Assembly: GCF_021134715.1 (NCBI RefSeq)
Contig: NC_060019.1
Coordinates: forward strand, 7,626,001 to 7,690,000
Source of the DNA: Daphnia pulex
Lineage: Eukaryota > Arthropoda > Branchiopoda > Diplostraca > Daphniidae
Length of the DNA stretch: 64,000 nucleotides
Direction of reading: 5' to 3'
Shown here in pieces: positions 7,272-14,824 of this stretch (position 1 is its first letter; each line of letters opens with the position of its first letter). The position numbers and the translations under genes are program-made. The notes under the pieces were generated by a model that had not been told where the DNA came from, ran no database searches, and saw nothing but the letters and a program-made list of their open reading frames with translations.

Positions 7272-10200
7272 CTACACAAGATCGGCGAATCCATTCGATA
7301 AAAACCACTGCAGTCGGCGGGTAACAACCCCCCAATTGACAATTTTTCCGAGGCGCCACCAACTCGAACCGATTCGTTTCAATTTGGCGAACCAAATAAT
7401 CAAAATAAAATCGGAGATTGGTTTGGCGATCGGAATAGAATTTTCAATTGGGACCCAGTTTTGACAAGGACAAAACGAAGGAAGTCGACACGTAATTTTT
7501 GGCTGGACTTACCATCAGGTTGATCGCTGGTAGAGGCCAATCCCCCGCCAGAGGACACATTGTGGAGGCTTCCGCTGTTGTTGTTTGCCGCGTTGTTGCT
7601 GCTGGCCTTGCTGCCGAAATTCAACCCCGTCTTGCGCATAATCTTGCCCGAAGTGATGAGTTTTCCGAATCCCTCCTGGTGAGCGAAAGCGTAGCCGGAG
7701 CGAAGCGATCGTCGACTCCGCCGGGCCGACGGTGTCCGCATGAAATCTTGGGATTTGTGCGCCCTATTGGAAATGAATAAGAGGGAAAAAAATCAATGAA
7801 CGAAGATGATCAATTTGTACGAAAGAAGAAAAAAGAAAGAAAAAGGTACCGAATGGCGGAAAGTCTTTGCTTGAGACGAACGCGGTCCGACAGCGTCGGA
7901 TGAACATCAACGAAGTAGAATCTCCACGCCACCACCGGAATCATTAAGATGACGATGGATAAGACGAGAGTGAACCAAAAAGTCGCTTCGCCCATAGCCT
8001 GACAAGTTTGGGTAAATTCGTGGTTAGGTGTAAAATTCCGACAATAAAAACATTGAAAATTGAATAATTCCTGGTTACCTTGGTGAGGGATCCGACGTAG
8101 GAGCCACCGATGACGAAATTATAAAAATACTGGAGGGCAAAGTACCAAACCAAGGAGCCCCAGATGGTGATGTGGTTGAAGACGGTCCAGTAGGCCGTGT
8201 CCAGCGCAATTTGCACGGTGACAACAACGACTAGGATCGTGGCCACGACGCTGCCAATCAGCTGATGGTCGGACGTGGTGTGCCCTTGTTGAGAGGCGCC
8301 ATAAAAGTAGGCACCTGCCGATATCAAAACAGGATTGCAAATCAGGTAAGAAACAAAAGGAATGTCATTCGACTGGAAAGAAATGTGAAATCAAAGAACA
8401 AGACTTTTGAATGTGCTCGAAAGTGAGAGAGAGAGAAGAGAGTAAAGAGAGAGAATGGATGGATGGATGGAAGCAGAAGAAATGGAGCGATAAGGTAACT
8501 GGGAAGGAATTCGATATCTAAAGAGGATATCTGCTAGATATAAAAAGAATGGGAGAAAAAAACGTGTCCCTGCTCAATCAATTTTTTGATGAAGCGGATC
8601 GGGCATAAAGAGTTCTTTGGCTGAGTGGGTGGTCGGTGGGTGTTGGGTGTAGACGGGCAATGGGCAAAAAAAAATGGGGACGCACCGTAGGGAATGAAGA
8701 AGAGGACACACGACGTGATGCATCCGTGCATGGCGCTCTTGAAGAACTCCCCCTTATTGAACAGCAAGTTCAGATGGCCGGGCGTGAAGAGCTTAGGGTA
8801 CTTGAGGCTGTTGACGTCATTGACGTCTTGGTCGAATATACCCAACGCTAGGACGGGCAACGACGTGTAGAATAAGTTGTAGACCGATATGAACATCGGG
8901 TCAAAGACGGTCTATTCGCCATCGAGCCAGGACCCCCAAACAACAATCGATACAAAGAGTAAAAGTAGAACATTATTAAATGGGGGCAAAAGGGTCAACG
9001 AGATTTTCGGTGATGGCAACATTTCGCTGATCGTCGTAACAAGAAGAAGGGCGTGGCCATTTGTTAGCATTACTACTTATATAGGTCCAAATACTACTAC
9101 CAGGCTAGACAATAGCTCTCTCTCGGCTCCTGTCATCGGGTTCAAAGCAGAGAAGGTCACTAGGAACGAGTTGAGAGCGGAAGGAGGAGGAAAAATTTAA
9201 AGGCAAAAATAAAAAATAAATCAAGTGGACGGGAGAAAAACATGCTTAACAAAAAAGTAAAATCAAAATAATCCGGAATGATTCATTTCTCTCTGCCCTG
9301 TGGTATTAGGGAAGGGCATGTGATGGTGGTCAATCTATTACTGTCATCCAGCTAGCCTCCGTTACGGTTGCCGTTCATAAATCACATGCCAGCCGGATGA
9401 AAACCAAGGGTCGTTCGCCAGAGAAAAAAAAGGAATCGACTGAAAAAGTAAGCGTTGCGGGCGGATTAGAGGAGGCAGTGGGAGGTCAAAGTGCTTGATG
9501 TGTACACACACATAGACCAAACTGAAACCAGTGGATTTTTGCTATCCGGATCTCTTTCTTCTGTTAGATAGACACCGTTACGTACCTATTGGTACAAAGC
9601 AAACTAAAACCGAGGTAGCGACACCGTGCAAGGCAGCAGAGGCAAAGCTTAGCGGATTGAAGAAACGGTGGCCCAATCCGGGCCAGTAGAGTCTCGGGTA
9701 GCGTGTGGACAGCGTGTCACAGATGTCTTGTTCTAGAGTGCCCAGCACAACGACGGGCAGCGATGTGTAGACCACGTTGTACGATATGATAAAGAACGGG
9801 TCGAACACCGTCTAAACGTGTCATCCATCGTATATATCGCACGGTCAAATTGTCAATGAGATAAATAGTTTTTCCATTCCAGGGTGCAAGTCTAACGTGC
9901 TGTGAGTATTCATGGCATTATGCAAAAATAAAAGTTTCTTTCCCCCCCCACCAAGCTGAAAAAATTACCGTATTTTGAAAAGAGAAGAATCAAAATTCAA
10001 TCAACACACACACACAATAGATTCGCCAACTTGTTTTGTCAAAAGCATTCCTGAACAAGTTGACCGGAGAAGTTGGATCCTGTTGAATCTACGAGAGGGG
10101 GAAGTCAAACTAGGAAAAACTTGTACGCAACAGATTGCACATTGATTGTGCAACTTGTTCCGCTCTACTTTCGCTTATTATTAAAAGATGATTAATGGTC

Positions 10201-13200
10201 GACAAAGTAATCTCTTCAACATTCTAACATCAATCGACCCTGTGACCTGTTATGCTAGTTATGCTGTCATCGGCACGCCCATCTTCTGTTACGATTCAAT
10301 AAAATTTTTTCTGTTCGGGATGAGCGCAAAAGTGTTGCCACATACCTGGGCGGAGAATCCGCAAAAGAAGGCGAACCAAAAATGGCATAGGGTGAAGGCG
10401 AAATTCTTGTAGAAGAAGTAGCGCAAAAACTTGGCCATCCGGAGATAGGACCAACGTCCGTGCACGAGCAGCAATCGCTCGAGGTAACGGAATTGGGCGA
10501 TGCTGTAATCCGATGCCAAGACGGCCTGAATAAATTAAAAAAGAGAGCGATTACAATTAAAGAAAATTTAAAAAAAATCAAATGATGAGATGTGATGCGT
10601 ACCTGCATTCCTTCCTGGCCGCTGATACCGACGCCGATGTGAGCCGTTTTGATCATAGAAACGTCGTTGGCTCCATCGCCAATAGAGAGCGTGACGGCCT
10701 GTTTGTACTTTTTCACCAAGTCGACCACCATGGCCTTTTGGAGGGGAGTGACCCGGCAGCAAATCACCGCTTTGCCTGAAGGAATAAGAGAATGTGTTGT
10801 TGTTAGCGGTTGCCAAGGGAAATTTGCCGACAACCAGACTTACATTGGGTGCCGACGTCGAGAAAAAGCTTCTCCAACTTGGTCTGCAGGGCGTAGACCA
10901 GCGAGTGGCCGTTGATGACTAAGGCGTAACCCGTGTTGCAGTCTTCGTCAATACCGCTCAATCCCGGCCCACACGGCATGTCCTCCATTTCCCCAGCAAT
11001 GTGGGAGGAATAGCCACGATCGCTAAATGATTCAACAATTCTTTAATAAGTAAAACCGCAGCCCTGGGAAAATAACGGCTGACATATGTTACGATTACCT
11101 AATGCCACTGACTGGCGTTTGGAGCTGAGTACGGGCGTAACCGCGCAGGGACTCTCGGCATTTGACTAACTGGAGCTCCACATCTTCGACATTCTGACCG
11201 TCGACAATAAAGATGTCGACCATGTCGTCTGTCAACAGTTGGCATGAATAACCAATGTTGATGGCCGTTTCTAGAAACAAAAAAATGGTTTACTAAGACA
11301 ACGAAACTTGGGGAAATCTCACGGGTTAATCGGTTAACTCACCTTGTTTATCGCCAGTCAATACCCAGATCTTGATTCCGGCAATAGCCAAATTGGCTAT
11401 CGTTTGTGGCACCTGTAACAAATAAATCCCACCATTTTTTTTAGTAAATGATTCTATTTGAAATTCTTCACTAATATCAACTTACTCCGTCTTGAAGTTT
11501 GTCTTCGATGGCCGTTGCACCCAGAAGCGTAAGGTTTTGTTCTATTTCTTCATAGAGTTTGTCAAGGCGTTCTTCGCGTGACTTGATCGTGACGGAAGCC
11601 TCGTGATGACGTTCTTTCCAGTCCTCAAAATAAGCTTCATCAACGTCGCGGATGGCCAAACACAAGGTCCGCAATCCTTCGCCGGCAAATTTCTGCACAA
11701 AACATGTCGGAATTTTAGATATGATCGCAATAAATAAAGGAGTCGCTCACGTTTAGATGCTCTTGTGTCTTGTTCTTCATGTCGTCGTTTCCCGATTGAA
11801 GATGATCGTAAACGATCGAGTCGGCCCCTTTGCAGTAAAGGCGGATCTTGCCGTTGGGACCACGCAGAATGACCGACATCCGTTTGCGGACGTTGTTGAA
11901 GTCGAGGATGCACAACAACTCGTAAACTTCCGTTTTCCCCATCACCTAATGCATCCGAAGTAGATTATTAGTAAGAAGAATTCCGGTTGAATAAGAATGT
12001 ATACGAGCGTTGCCGATGAACCAACCTCAATCGTGATGGAATCCGGAGTACGAGCCTTGAAAACGAATCCAAAATTTCGGGCGGCCGAAACCAGAGCCCC
12101 TTCATCCGGCGACTGCGCTTGGTATTCTAATTTACCTGGAACGCAGAAAAAATAAAAATGTTTGTGTGAAGCAAAAAAAATCTTTATGACATTCCACTAA
12201 AGAATAGAGGTTAAAATACCATTCTTCTCGTCAGGCATGACGGTGTGGCAGAGCGCCAATAGGCGAAAGAATTCATGGCAAGTAGGATCCTCGCGATTCG
12301 AGTCTATCAGGGTCTGGTCGTAGAACTTAAAGGCTTGTTCGTGAAGCGGATTGAACGAAAAATCCACCGGCTTGGTATTCTGGAGTGAGGAAAAAAGAGT
12401 CAAATATGATGTATGAAATTGGACGGGCCAAAATTCTCGGGATGTATACGATACCTCATTGGGATCAATGACTTCTCCGTTTGACGAGTCGTAGACGTCG
12501 CCGTAGCAAGTTCCGCCAATTGAACACTTGTTGAAGGACATAATGTTCTGCGTCAAAGTTCCCGTTTTGTCGGAGAAGATGTACTCGATCTGGCCGAGCT
12601 CCTCGTTGAGTGTCGTGGTGCGAGCCTTGGCCGGCGTCTGCGACTTTTCGTAGTACATTTGCTGGTCCCAGTTGATGAGAAAGGACTGGGCCAGCCGGAT
12701 GACTTCCACGCTGACGTAAAGCGAGATGGGCACCACCGTGTTGAGAACGATGGCGTACGAGAAGAAGATCAACAAGGCGATGACGGTGGATCCGGCAGCC
12801 GGTGGCTCGGCCGGAATCAACGGATCCCACGGCAAGTAGGAGCGGAAGTACTGGCCCGTCACCGTCTCCCACACTCCGCATGCAATTGTGCAAAACAAGC
12901 ACATGGAAAGTAAGAAAAAAACAATCTAAAAAAAGAAAAAGAAAGTTAATTGCCGGACAGTACATATGGTGGCCGGCCACAATCAACGTAAAAAATTCGA
13001 TTTTACCCCCAGGATGATGAAATTAAGGAGACGATCAATCGAAGTCCGTTTGAACTTCGTCTTGCCGGAATTCTGCATGAGCTTAGTGTCCCGTCCGGCG
13101 AAGATGACGACGCCGTAGCACCACTGAGTGTTACGTAGGACGCATCCTCGCAGCAGGATCTTTTCGTTGTCCAAGGAATATTGCTTGCCGTTCCACGTTA

Positions 13201-14824
13201 ACCGGCCATCGAATTTGTTCAAATGGTTATTGGGCGGCTCGCAGATGATCTCCCCGTTGAAGCTTCCTATTCTGGCCTCATTCTGGCCCATCTCGGCTGT
13301 CTCCATGAGGCACTGGCGGCATTTCAAATTGGTCTCCCTGCGCACAACATGTAATGATAGCATGACATGATTAGAGGAGAGCGTGGACATTTACAAGATT
13401 GGGCCGCGCTTACCCGTCCAACTCAGCCGTTTCAATATAGCAGAGACCGTTGGGCTCGGACGTGGTCAAAAGCAGAAGATCGGCGGCAATAAACTGGTCA
13501 TTCTCCATCCGGATGATGTCACCCACCTGGACTTTGTGCCAGCGCTCTTCCACCGACTTGCCATTGCGCAGGACGTGCGACTTCCTATTATTGACTTGAG
13601 AGTCACTTCGATGTCGTTGCTAAAAACAGGCGAAAAAAAAAGGAAAAAACCAAAATTAATTTTGAGAAAAATCAACCGGGATCGGTAACCAGGAGATGAA
13701 AATACTTACAAAGTCATCATACGCATCTTTGATGGCCGTAAGGAGCAGGACACCAATAAGAGGCACGGCAGTGGTGACGGGTGTCAACGACGAAATGAAG
13801 GGAATAAATTGTAGAACCAGAAGGCACAGGAAATAAAAATTCGCTAGCCGCTGGAACTGCTCGATCAAGTTCACCGGCACAAACGACAGCAGCGTATACT
13901 TGGAGGTCTGAATATAATTATTCTAAAAAGCCAAACGACGGATTATTATTACTTGGCGCCAATAAAAAAAGAAAAATTCGATTCTCAAAAGACGACGCTC
14001 AGACACTGTGGAAGATGTGACGCCTGTCACCGCAGGAAAGGATTAGGGAGCGCGGAAATCGCTTTTCATTTTCAAACGATGCGGACGGAACCAACCCATT
14101 CCGCATCCGCTTTTCTCAGCAATGACACGACCGCGACCGAAAGGGGACGATTGAATTTAGGGGAAAATAAACGACGTTTTCGACAGTTTCAAAGCGAAAA
14201 GGAAAATGATGCGCGGTTTTTATTACCATCAGCCTGTCGAAACTTACTGAATAATTAAACTGCAGGTTGTATGCAGCGTCGTTGGCCCGTATCCTTCGCT
14301 CGTTTTCTGTTCAATCAAACAAGAGAGAAAAAAAAGGACAAAATTAGTTTTTTAAATATTTAACACAAGTTCCCGTTCGCATCACAGCCGACAAAGTAAA
14401 CGACAGAGAAATAGTAATCACGAAGCAACAAGATAAAAAAAATACAAACGACGATAACAAACACGATTACCAAACAGCTATAAACCCTCCGACCACCGGT
14501 CGCAGGACGCACGCAGATCAAGGAACAACACACCAAAAACACACTGTTGAGCTACTAGTGTCATGCCAATTTCGTTTCCTCTCTTCTTATTCTTTTTTGC
14601 CCCCTCCATTATTTAAATGTTATGTACACACTCTCTTCTTCTTCTTCTTTCTTTTTTTATTTCTTTTTTCTTTTCCGCCTGTTACATTCCCTTGTGTGCA
14701 AGCCACCCCTCCGCCATTCCATGCTCTGCCGGGGCTATTACAATCGGCGACGGATCAATACGACACGGAGCCAAAGGCGGCAAGCCGGATGCTTTCGGTA
14801 ATGGAAACGGAGGAGAACACAAGC

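Follow-up and report, generated by a model that had tools for sequence, protein, structure and literature searches.

A candidate pair of mutually exclusive exons in an ATP8B gene of Daphnia pulex

The exon pair

We analysed a window of 64,000 nucleotides of the Daphnia pulex genome (NCBI RefSeq assembly GCF_021134715.1, contig NC_060019.1, positions 7,626,001 to 7,690,000; all positions below are counted within this window). A P4-ATPase gene of the ATP8B type, on the minus strand, carries two versions of one internal exon, and we think it probable that they are a mutually exclusive pair which swaps a regulatory surface of the encoded flippase. Both exons are 226 nt long and encode transmembrane helix 6 (M6 or TM6), the cytosolic M6-M7 loop and most of M7. 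Exon A, the 5' copy (9586..9811, minus strand), is the divergent version and exon B, the 3' copy (8686..8911, minus strand), is the family-standard one. A sequence-only reading of this DNA had proposed the mutually exclusive arrangement, with exactly these positions, length and phases, and the exon structure (frame, phases and homology) bears it out.

Each exon is an open frame between AG and GT. The borders, marked by slashes, are TTTAG/ACGGTG...CAATAG/GTACGT for exon A (9811-9586) and AATAG/ACCGTC...CCTACG/GTGCGT for exon B (8911-8686), and both exons are entered in phase 0 and left in phase 1. Upstream lies a constant exon encoding M5 (10346..10525, minus), which ends in ...FSAQ at phase 0, and downstream another constant exon (8079..8314, minus) with the rest of M7 and M8 onward; the residues of both in the gene model are the same in the RefSeq D. 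pulex protein P0003, which includes exon B as well. Taken alone, exon A matches PF16212 at profile positions 60-133 (E 1.3e-18) and exon B at positions 60-134 (E 3.8e-23).

The segment had been described as 76 residues with about 49% identity; it actually consists of 75 complete residues and a single base of a glycine codon divided between exons, and 36 of the 75 residues are identical (48%). The nucleotide identity is 54% (52, 64 and 47% at the three codon positions), and this rules out a recent duplication or an assembly artefact.

Regarding the reading frame, the claim that using both exons would break it was right: a modelled transcript with A and B together runs into a stop at most a dozen bases into exon B. 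With neither exon, the stop comes 18 residues past the junction. The pair thus combines similar length, compatible splice sites and phases, homology, and unproductive double inclusion or skipping, as is characteristic of mutually exclusive exons. Furthermore, when each exon was searched against the whole genome (E<=1, nine matches per query, scoring limited to the best candidates), the gene showed no third copy of the exon at E<=1, and the ATP8B gene was the only locus with two copies.

In the arrangement that we propose, splicing would attach one of the two, A or B, to the M5 exon and the M7-M8 exon would follow, while double inclusion or skipping would lead to an early stop and the resulting mRNA would be expected to be removed by nonsense-mediated decay. 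The two isoforms would share the ATPase core, M1-M5 and M8-M10; the differences would lie in M6, in the M6-M7 loop on the cytosolic side and in M7.

Conservation of exon A

Exon A was compared with the consensus of 85 distinct B-type segments, drawn from the 237 proteins listed after a garbled record (P0012) had been dropped by hand. It keeps 16 of the 20 columns where conservation is >=98%, 16 of the 24 columns at 80-98% and 6 of the 31 variable columns (<80%). The four departures in the most conserved columns are L to V, V to I, S to A and F to C. The NG86 estimates between A and B were a dN (nonsynonymous rate) of 0.56 and a dS (synonymous rate) of 1.61, a ratio of about 0.35 that is only rough, with dS near saturation; other dN/dS estimators reached saturation. 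In a neutral simulation, exon B was mutated free of selection until its nucleotide identity fell to the observed value; 434 of the 5000 runs were stop-free and none exceeded 31 identical residues, against the 36 observed. Because the conserved columns are kept, dN is lower than dS and the neutral simulations never reached 36 identities, exon A appears to be maintained as coding sequence; it looks neither like a recent copy nor like a dead one.

The host gene

The modelled protein matches PF16212 and contains the DKTGT and PISL motifs, which identify it as a P4-ATPase. Among the solved structures, that of human ATP8B1 is the nearest (1196.6 bits, the next group scoring 910.7), and the names of many relatives among the matches listed are ATPase ID, IM or 8B. 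By sequence comparison, then, this D. pulex gene is an ATP8B. The modelled core extends over 7850..14306 on the minus strand, with 17 exons per transcript and with N- and C-terminal exons beyond that span. P0003 is identical to the model over the 241 residues searched, and it agrees with the exon model except at the start of exon 12 (about 11019, in the model 11040).

At this exon (minus strand, 11019-11040) there are two possible acceptors, 21 nt apart and in the same frame, and RefSeq uses the downstream one, at about 11019. Elsewhere in the gene, the intron at 12380-12454 (minus) is 75 nt long, a multiple of three, and open in frame; its retention would add 25 residues and no stop.

What the exchange changes in the protein

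The exon was mapped on human ATP8B1 through an alignment that is gap-free over the 68 exon residues printed. It corresponds to ATP8B1 residues 978-1052, as counted by us from N989, and the helix borders within the exon are our own. The equivalents of N989 and T993 (TM6) and of G1040 (M7) fall inside the exon, so its earlier placement at M6-M7 was correct. A and B agree in 5 of the 6 starting residues, in 12 of 20 in M6, in 11 of 29 in the loop and in 8 of 20 in M7; loop and M7 together keep 19 of 49.

In the available sections of PMC10657443, N989 and T993 (TM6, through their backbone carbonyls) and K957 (TM5) are placed at the transport-site water. The equivalents of N989 and T993 are present in both exons, that of K957 is in the constant part, and the stretch YTSLPV is common to A and B. 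This agreement is weak evidence, as these residues act through backbone carbonyls. Also kept in both exons is the glycine at exon position 63, equivalent to ATP8B1 G1040, whose change to arginine is given in part of PMC11073571 as a variant of progressive familial intrahepatic cholestasis type 1 (PFIC1).

It could still be that the exons are mutually exclusive and that the main effect of the choice is on which lipid is flipped, as in the part of PMC11460456 available to us the substrate is seen between TM2, 4 and 6, and 8 of the 20 M6 residues differ between A and B. We regard this as rather unlikely because the N989 and T993 equivalents and YTSLPV are the same in both exons, an argument that carries little weight for the reason just given. 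The sequence-only reading had suggested either an altered lipid preference or an altered partner binding. The first of these finds no support, the TM6 transport-site residues being the same in A and B; the changes gather in the M6-M7 loop and in M7, the parts that concern the CDC50 tail and the phosphoinositide pocket.

Regarding these two sites, the parts of PMC9045818 that we consulted describe the N-terminal tail of CDC50A as touching the TM6-7 and TM8-9 loops, and those of PMC10657443 place phosphatidylinositol 3,4,5-trisphosphate, PI(3,4,5)P3, in a pocket of ATP8B1 formed by TM5, TM7, TM8 and TM10; in simulations its commonest contacts were R1032, R1164 and R952, R1032 being the foremost. 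R1032 maps to exon position 55, and the equivalent of R952 is kept in the constant part. At exon positions 53-58, a stretch chosen after looking at several and without correction for this choice, exon A reads PLSFAS, with no basic residue, and exon B reads KGEFFK, with two; every one of the 85 B-type segments carries at least one and at most three there (one in 20 segments, two in 49 and three in 16). The missing basic cluster in exon A is a lead and not a result.

With the M6 residues at the transport site unchanged, both isoforms of the proposed exon pair should remain lipid flippases. The altered face would be the contact with the CDC50 N-tail (M6-M7 loop) and the lining of the phosphoinositide pocket (M7), as in human ATP8B1. 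The A isoform would then be likely to show an altered partner coupling or a weaker phosphoinositide activation, in particular tissues or states.

A more specific possibility is that splicing switches phosphoinositide control, with exon B completing the pocket by the basic start of M7 and exon A removing it, and with a duplication at least as old as the split between water fleas and isopods. We hold this to be a long shot. If it were true, one gene would offer cells two forms of ATP8B, one gated by phosphoinositides and one less gated.

Splice signals and introns

All the introns round the pair have GT-AG borders. The intron before A (9812..10345, minus) is 534 nt long, the one between A and B (8912..9585, minus) is 674 nt long, the longest of the 17 modelled, and the one after B (8315..8685, minus) is 371 nt long. 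These are the three longest introns of the 17; another 13 are 58-90 nt long and the remaining one is 325 nt. Moreover, the acceptors of A and B are the poorest in pyrimidines of the 18 modelled, with 9 of the 20 preceding bases each, against 10-18 in the other 16 (exon 12 was scored at the 11040 site). Weak acceptors and long flanking introns are signs of a regulated exon.

An intron of 674 nt between A and B is too long for steric exclusion. We found eight inverted repeats round the pair, 11-30 nt long and 70-92% complementary, one of which pairs exon A with the intron after B (15 nt, 87%); no comparison with shuffled sequences was made and no inference is drawn from them. The decay of unproductive forms is thus the sole safeguard that the sequence suggests.

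Protein relatives and age of the duplication

Two protein searches were made: a query of 241 residues gave 7974 relatives and one of 94 residues round exon A gave 685, and in both cases the best 120 were considered. Without exception, the 237 distinct proteins listed score better against B than against A, therefore exon B is the standard exon. Records with B only are the RefSeq protein P0003 and the proteins P0004 and P0005, found on contigs of 4929 and 4836 nt; judging from the sizes of protein and contig, these contigs would be transcripts. Exon A was not found in viral contigs, and in genome contigs it gave a single match of 26 residues, in a bacterial metagenome-assembled genome, which we take as chance.

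Among those listed, the best match for exon A is P0007, a protein of the isopod Armadillidium vulgare. At about residues 555-615, ...FSAQ is followed in it by 41 residues of a second M6 segment (TVYDPFFISTYNLCYTSMPV...) and these by a full B-type segment, and a motif search found no other protein with two M6 segments among the matches listed. This is likely an annotation error that stems from an alternative exon not recognised as such, in which the gene prediction strung a partial extra exon before the B exon, in the same order as in Daphnia. The second segment of P0007 implies that the duplication may be old or recurrent.

A tree was built to date it, from 35 hand-chosen rows of the fetched set, which did not include the decayed gene copy of contig C10 (see below). 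Constraint tests gave p-values of the approximately unbiased test (p-AU) of 0.382 for A with cladoceran B, 0.414 for A within Pancrustacea, 0.145 for Daphnia A with isopod A and 0.187 for isopod A with isopod B. This tree of 35 rows and its constraint tests did not separate one old duplication from two separate ones, and long branches meet in it. All full B-type rows, molluscs and human included, stand at about the same distance from exon A (33-39 of 75 residues), as fits either an old copy or a fast one.

Decayed copies and other P4-ATPases

On the minus strand of G000:C10:4605000-4613000 (L032) we observed a decayed copy of the ATP8B gene, with introns, stops and frame changes. Its nucleotide identity to the gene is 76-81% over the three main matched stretches, stops interrupt it where its sequence aligns with the exonic residues 416-447 of P0003, and there is a frame change inside the M5 exon. 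This copy has no exon A: the stretch that opens with the intron before A and closes just short of B measures 1.3-1.4 kb in the window and 12-46 bases on C10, a range that depends on counting a weak match of 27 bases. We read the missing exon as a probable later loss, because the C10 copy resembles the gene far more than A resembles B.

There are further partial matches to the gene on the same contig (G000:C10), near 4.62, 4.65, 9.26 and 11.00 Mb (L033, L034, L035 and L036, respectively); the L033 match extends up to the M5 exon and the L034 match has later exons only. Outside the gene, close relatives of exon B were found only in C10 copies that look decayed or partial, according to a genome search and not to a full family tree.

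As for other P4-ATPases of D. pulex, no duplicated exon was seen in 12 fetched regions at the score cut-off used; in L031 the two pieces are parts of one segment split over two exons. Three adjacent P4-ATPase C-terminal domains lie at G000:C9:3363692-3377781 (L028-L030), probably tandem genes, each with a single match to the M6 segment.

Alternative explanations

Several observations weigh against a pair of exons that exchanges a regulatory surface. No transcript or protein that uses exon A came to light, and an exon-A word search gave 27 candidates, none at E<=1e-3; the protein database is clustered at 90%, and a Daphnia A isoform could hide in P0003's cluster of 24, since the isoforms would differ at 39 residues of about 1380. 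Among the best 120 of the 685 relatives, a second segment appears only in the isopod record, where it is a 41-residue fragment of a predicted protein, known from the protein alone; it shares 21 of its 41 residues with Daphnia A and 25 with Daphnia B, and so is not nearer to A. Nor did the search for inverted repeats round the pair, made without shuffle comparison, find an element enforcing the choice of exon. The contrast in basic residues also depends on the window: exon B carries E rather than R at position 55, 18 of the 85 B-type segments have no basic residue at 53-55, the net charge of 0 that A has at 53-58 is shared by 19 of the 85, and over 49-60 exon A has one basic residue, as do 20 of the 85.

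With these points in mind, exon A could instead be a poison exon, whose inclusion beside B shifts the frame and leads to mRNA decay, so that it tunes the amount of flippase and gives no second protein. The stop produced by A and B together, which lies upstream of further junctions, would suit that role, and so would the lack of a record with exon A among the matches listed. Nevertheless, a poison exon needs no protein conservation, and exon A keeps the conserved residues, the frame, the length and the phases that fit it to replace B, therefore we consider this explanation unlikely. Finally, that exon A is a dead relic of an old duplication, never used, is very unlikely: no A protein was recorded and decayed gene copies do exist on C10, one of them without the exon A stretch, but that copy has already acquired stops and a frame change at 76-81% identity, whereas exon A, at 54%, is intact and has kept its splice sites and conserved columns.

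In the proposed mutually exclusive pair, the exon structure is sound, and the usage of exon A and the effect of the swap are inferred.

Comparison with known systems

Mutually exclusive exons are well known in arthropods, and the ATP8B pair adds to them a new and well-formed case, in a functionally pointed position. The clusters of arthropod muscle myosin and Dscam, those of Daphnia included, likewise make isoforms by choice among duplicated exons, according to the parts of the literature consulted; they belong to other protein families, whereas the Daphnia ATP8B has a single pair in a membrane transporter. The Daphnia pair resembles the clusters defined by Pillmann et al. (2011, PMC3228551) and in addition has equal length and a frame-breaking nucleotide count, but in Daphnia the exclusive use is predicted from sequence; the word ATPase is absent from the main text of that paper.

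A P4-ATPase, human ATP10B, is listed with a mutually exclusive exon cluster in the available part of Hatje et al. (2017, PMC5740500), so the kind of gene is shared. However, ATP10B belongs to another subfamily, and its cluster is present in Eutheria and not in marsupials, which makes it a case independent of the Daphnia pair. Human ATP8B1-CDC50A is the closest solved relative, and both of its TM6 transport-site residues agree with the Daphnia exons, but the accessible parts of PMC10657443 and PMC9045818 mention no alternative M6-M7 exon and the word 'splice' does not occur in PMC9045818.

Among the open-licence papers listed for P4-ATPase splicing and for mutually exclusive exons of arthropods or Daphnia, we found no report of this exon pair. 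Mutually exclusive P4-ATPase exons are not described in the available part of PMC11100700; ATPase, phospholipid and flippase are absent from the main text of a study of D. pulex splicing under copper (PMC7318467); and ATP8, ATP10, ATP11 and flippase are absent from one of human tandem duplicated exons (PMC9741552).

Significance

Humans have four ATP8B genes, ATP8B1-4, according to the sections of PMC11460456 available to us. As the other close relatives of exon B in the D. pulex genome look decayed or partial, D. pulex may gain variety of ATP8B by exon choice instead. The same sections describe the roles of TM7-10 as not well understood and report that Drs2 and Dnf1 of yeast misfold when made into TM7-10 chimeras. 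An otherwise constant enzyme with a natural exchange of M6, loop and M7 would therefore be a ready-made test of the roles of these helices.
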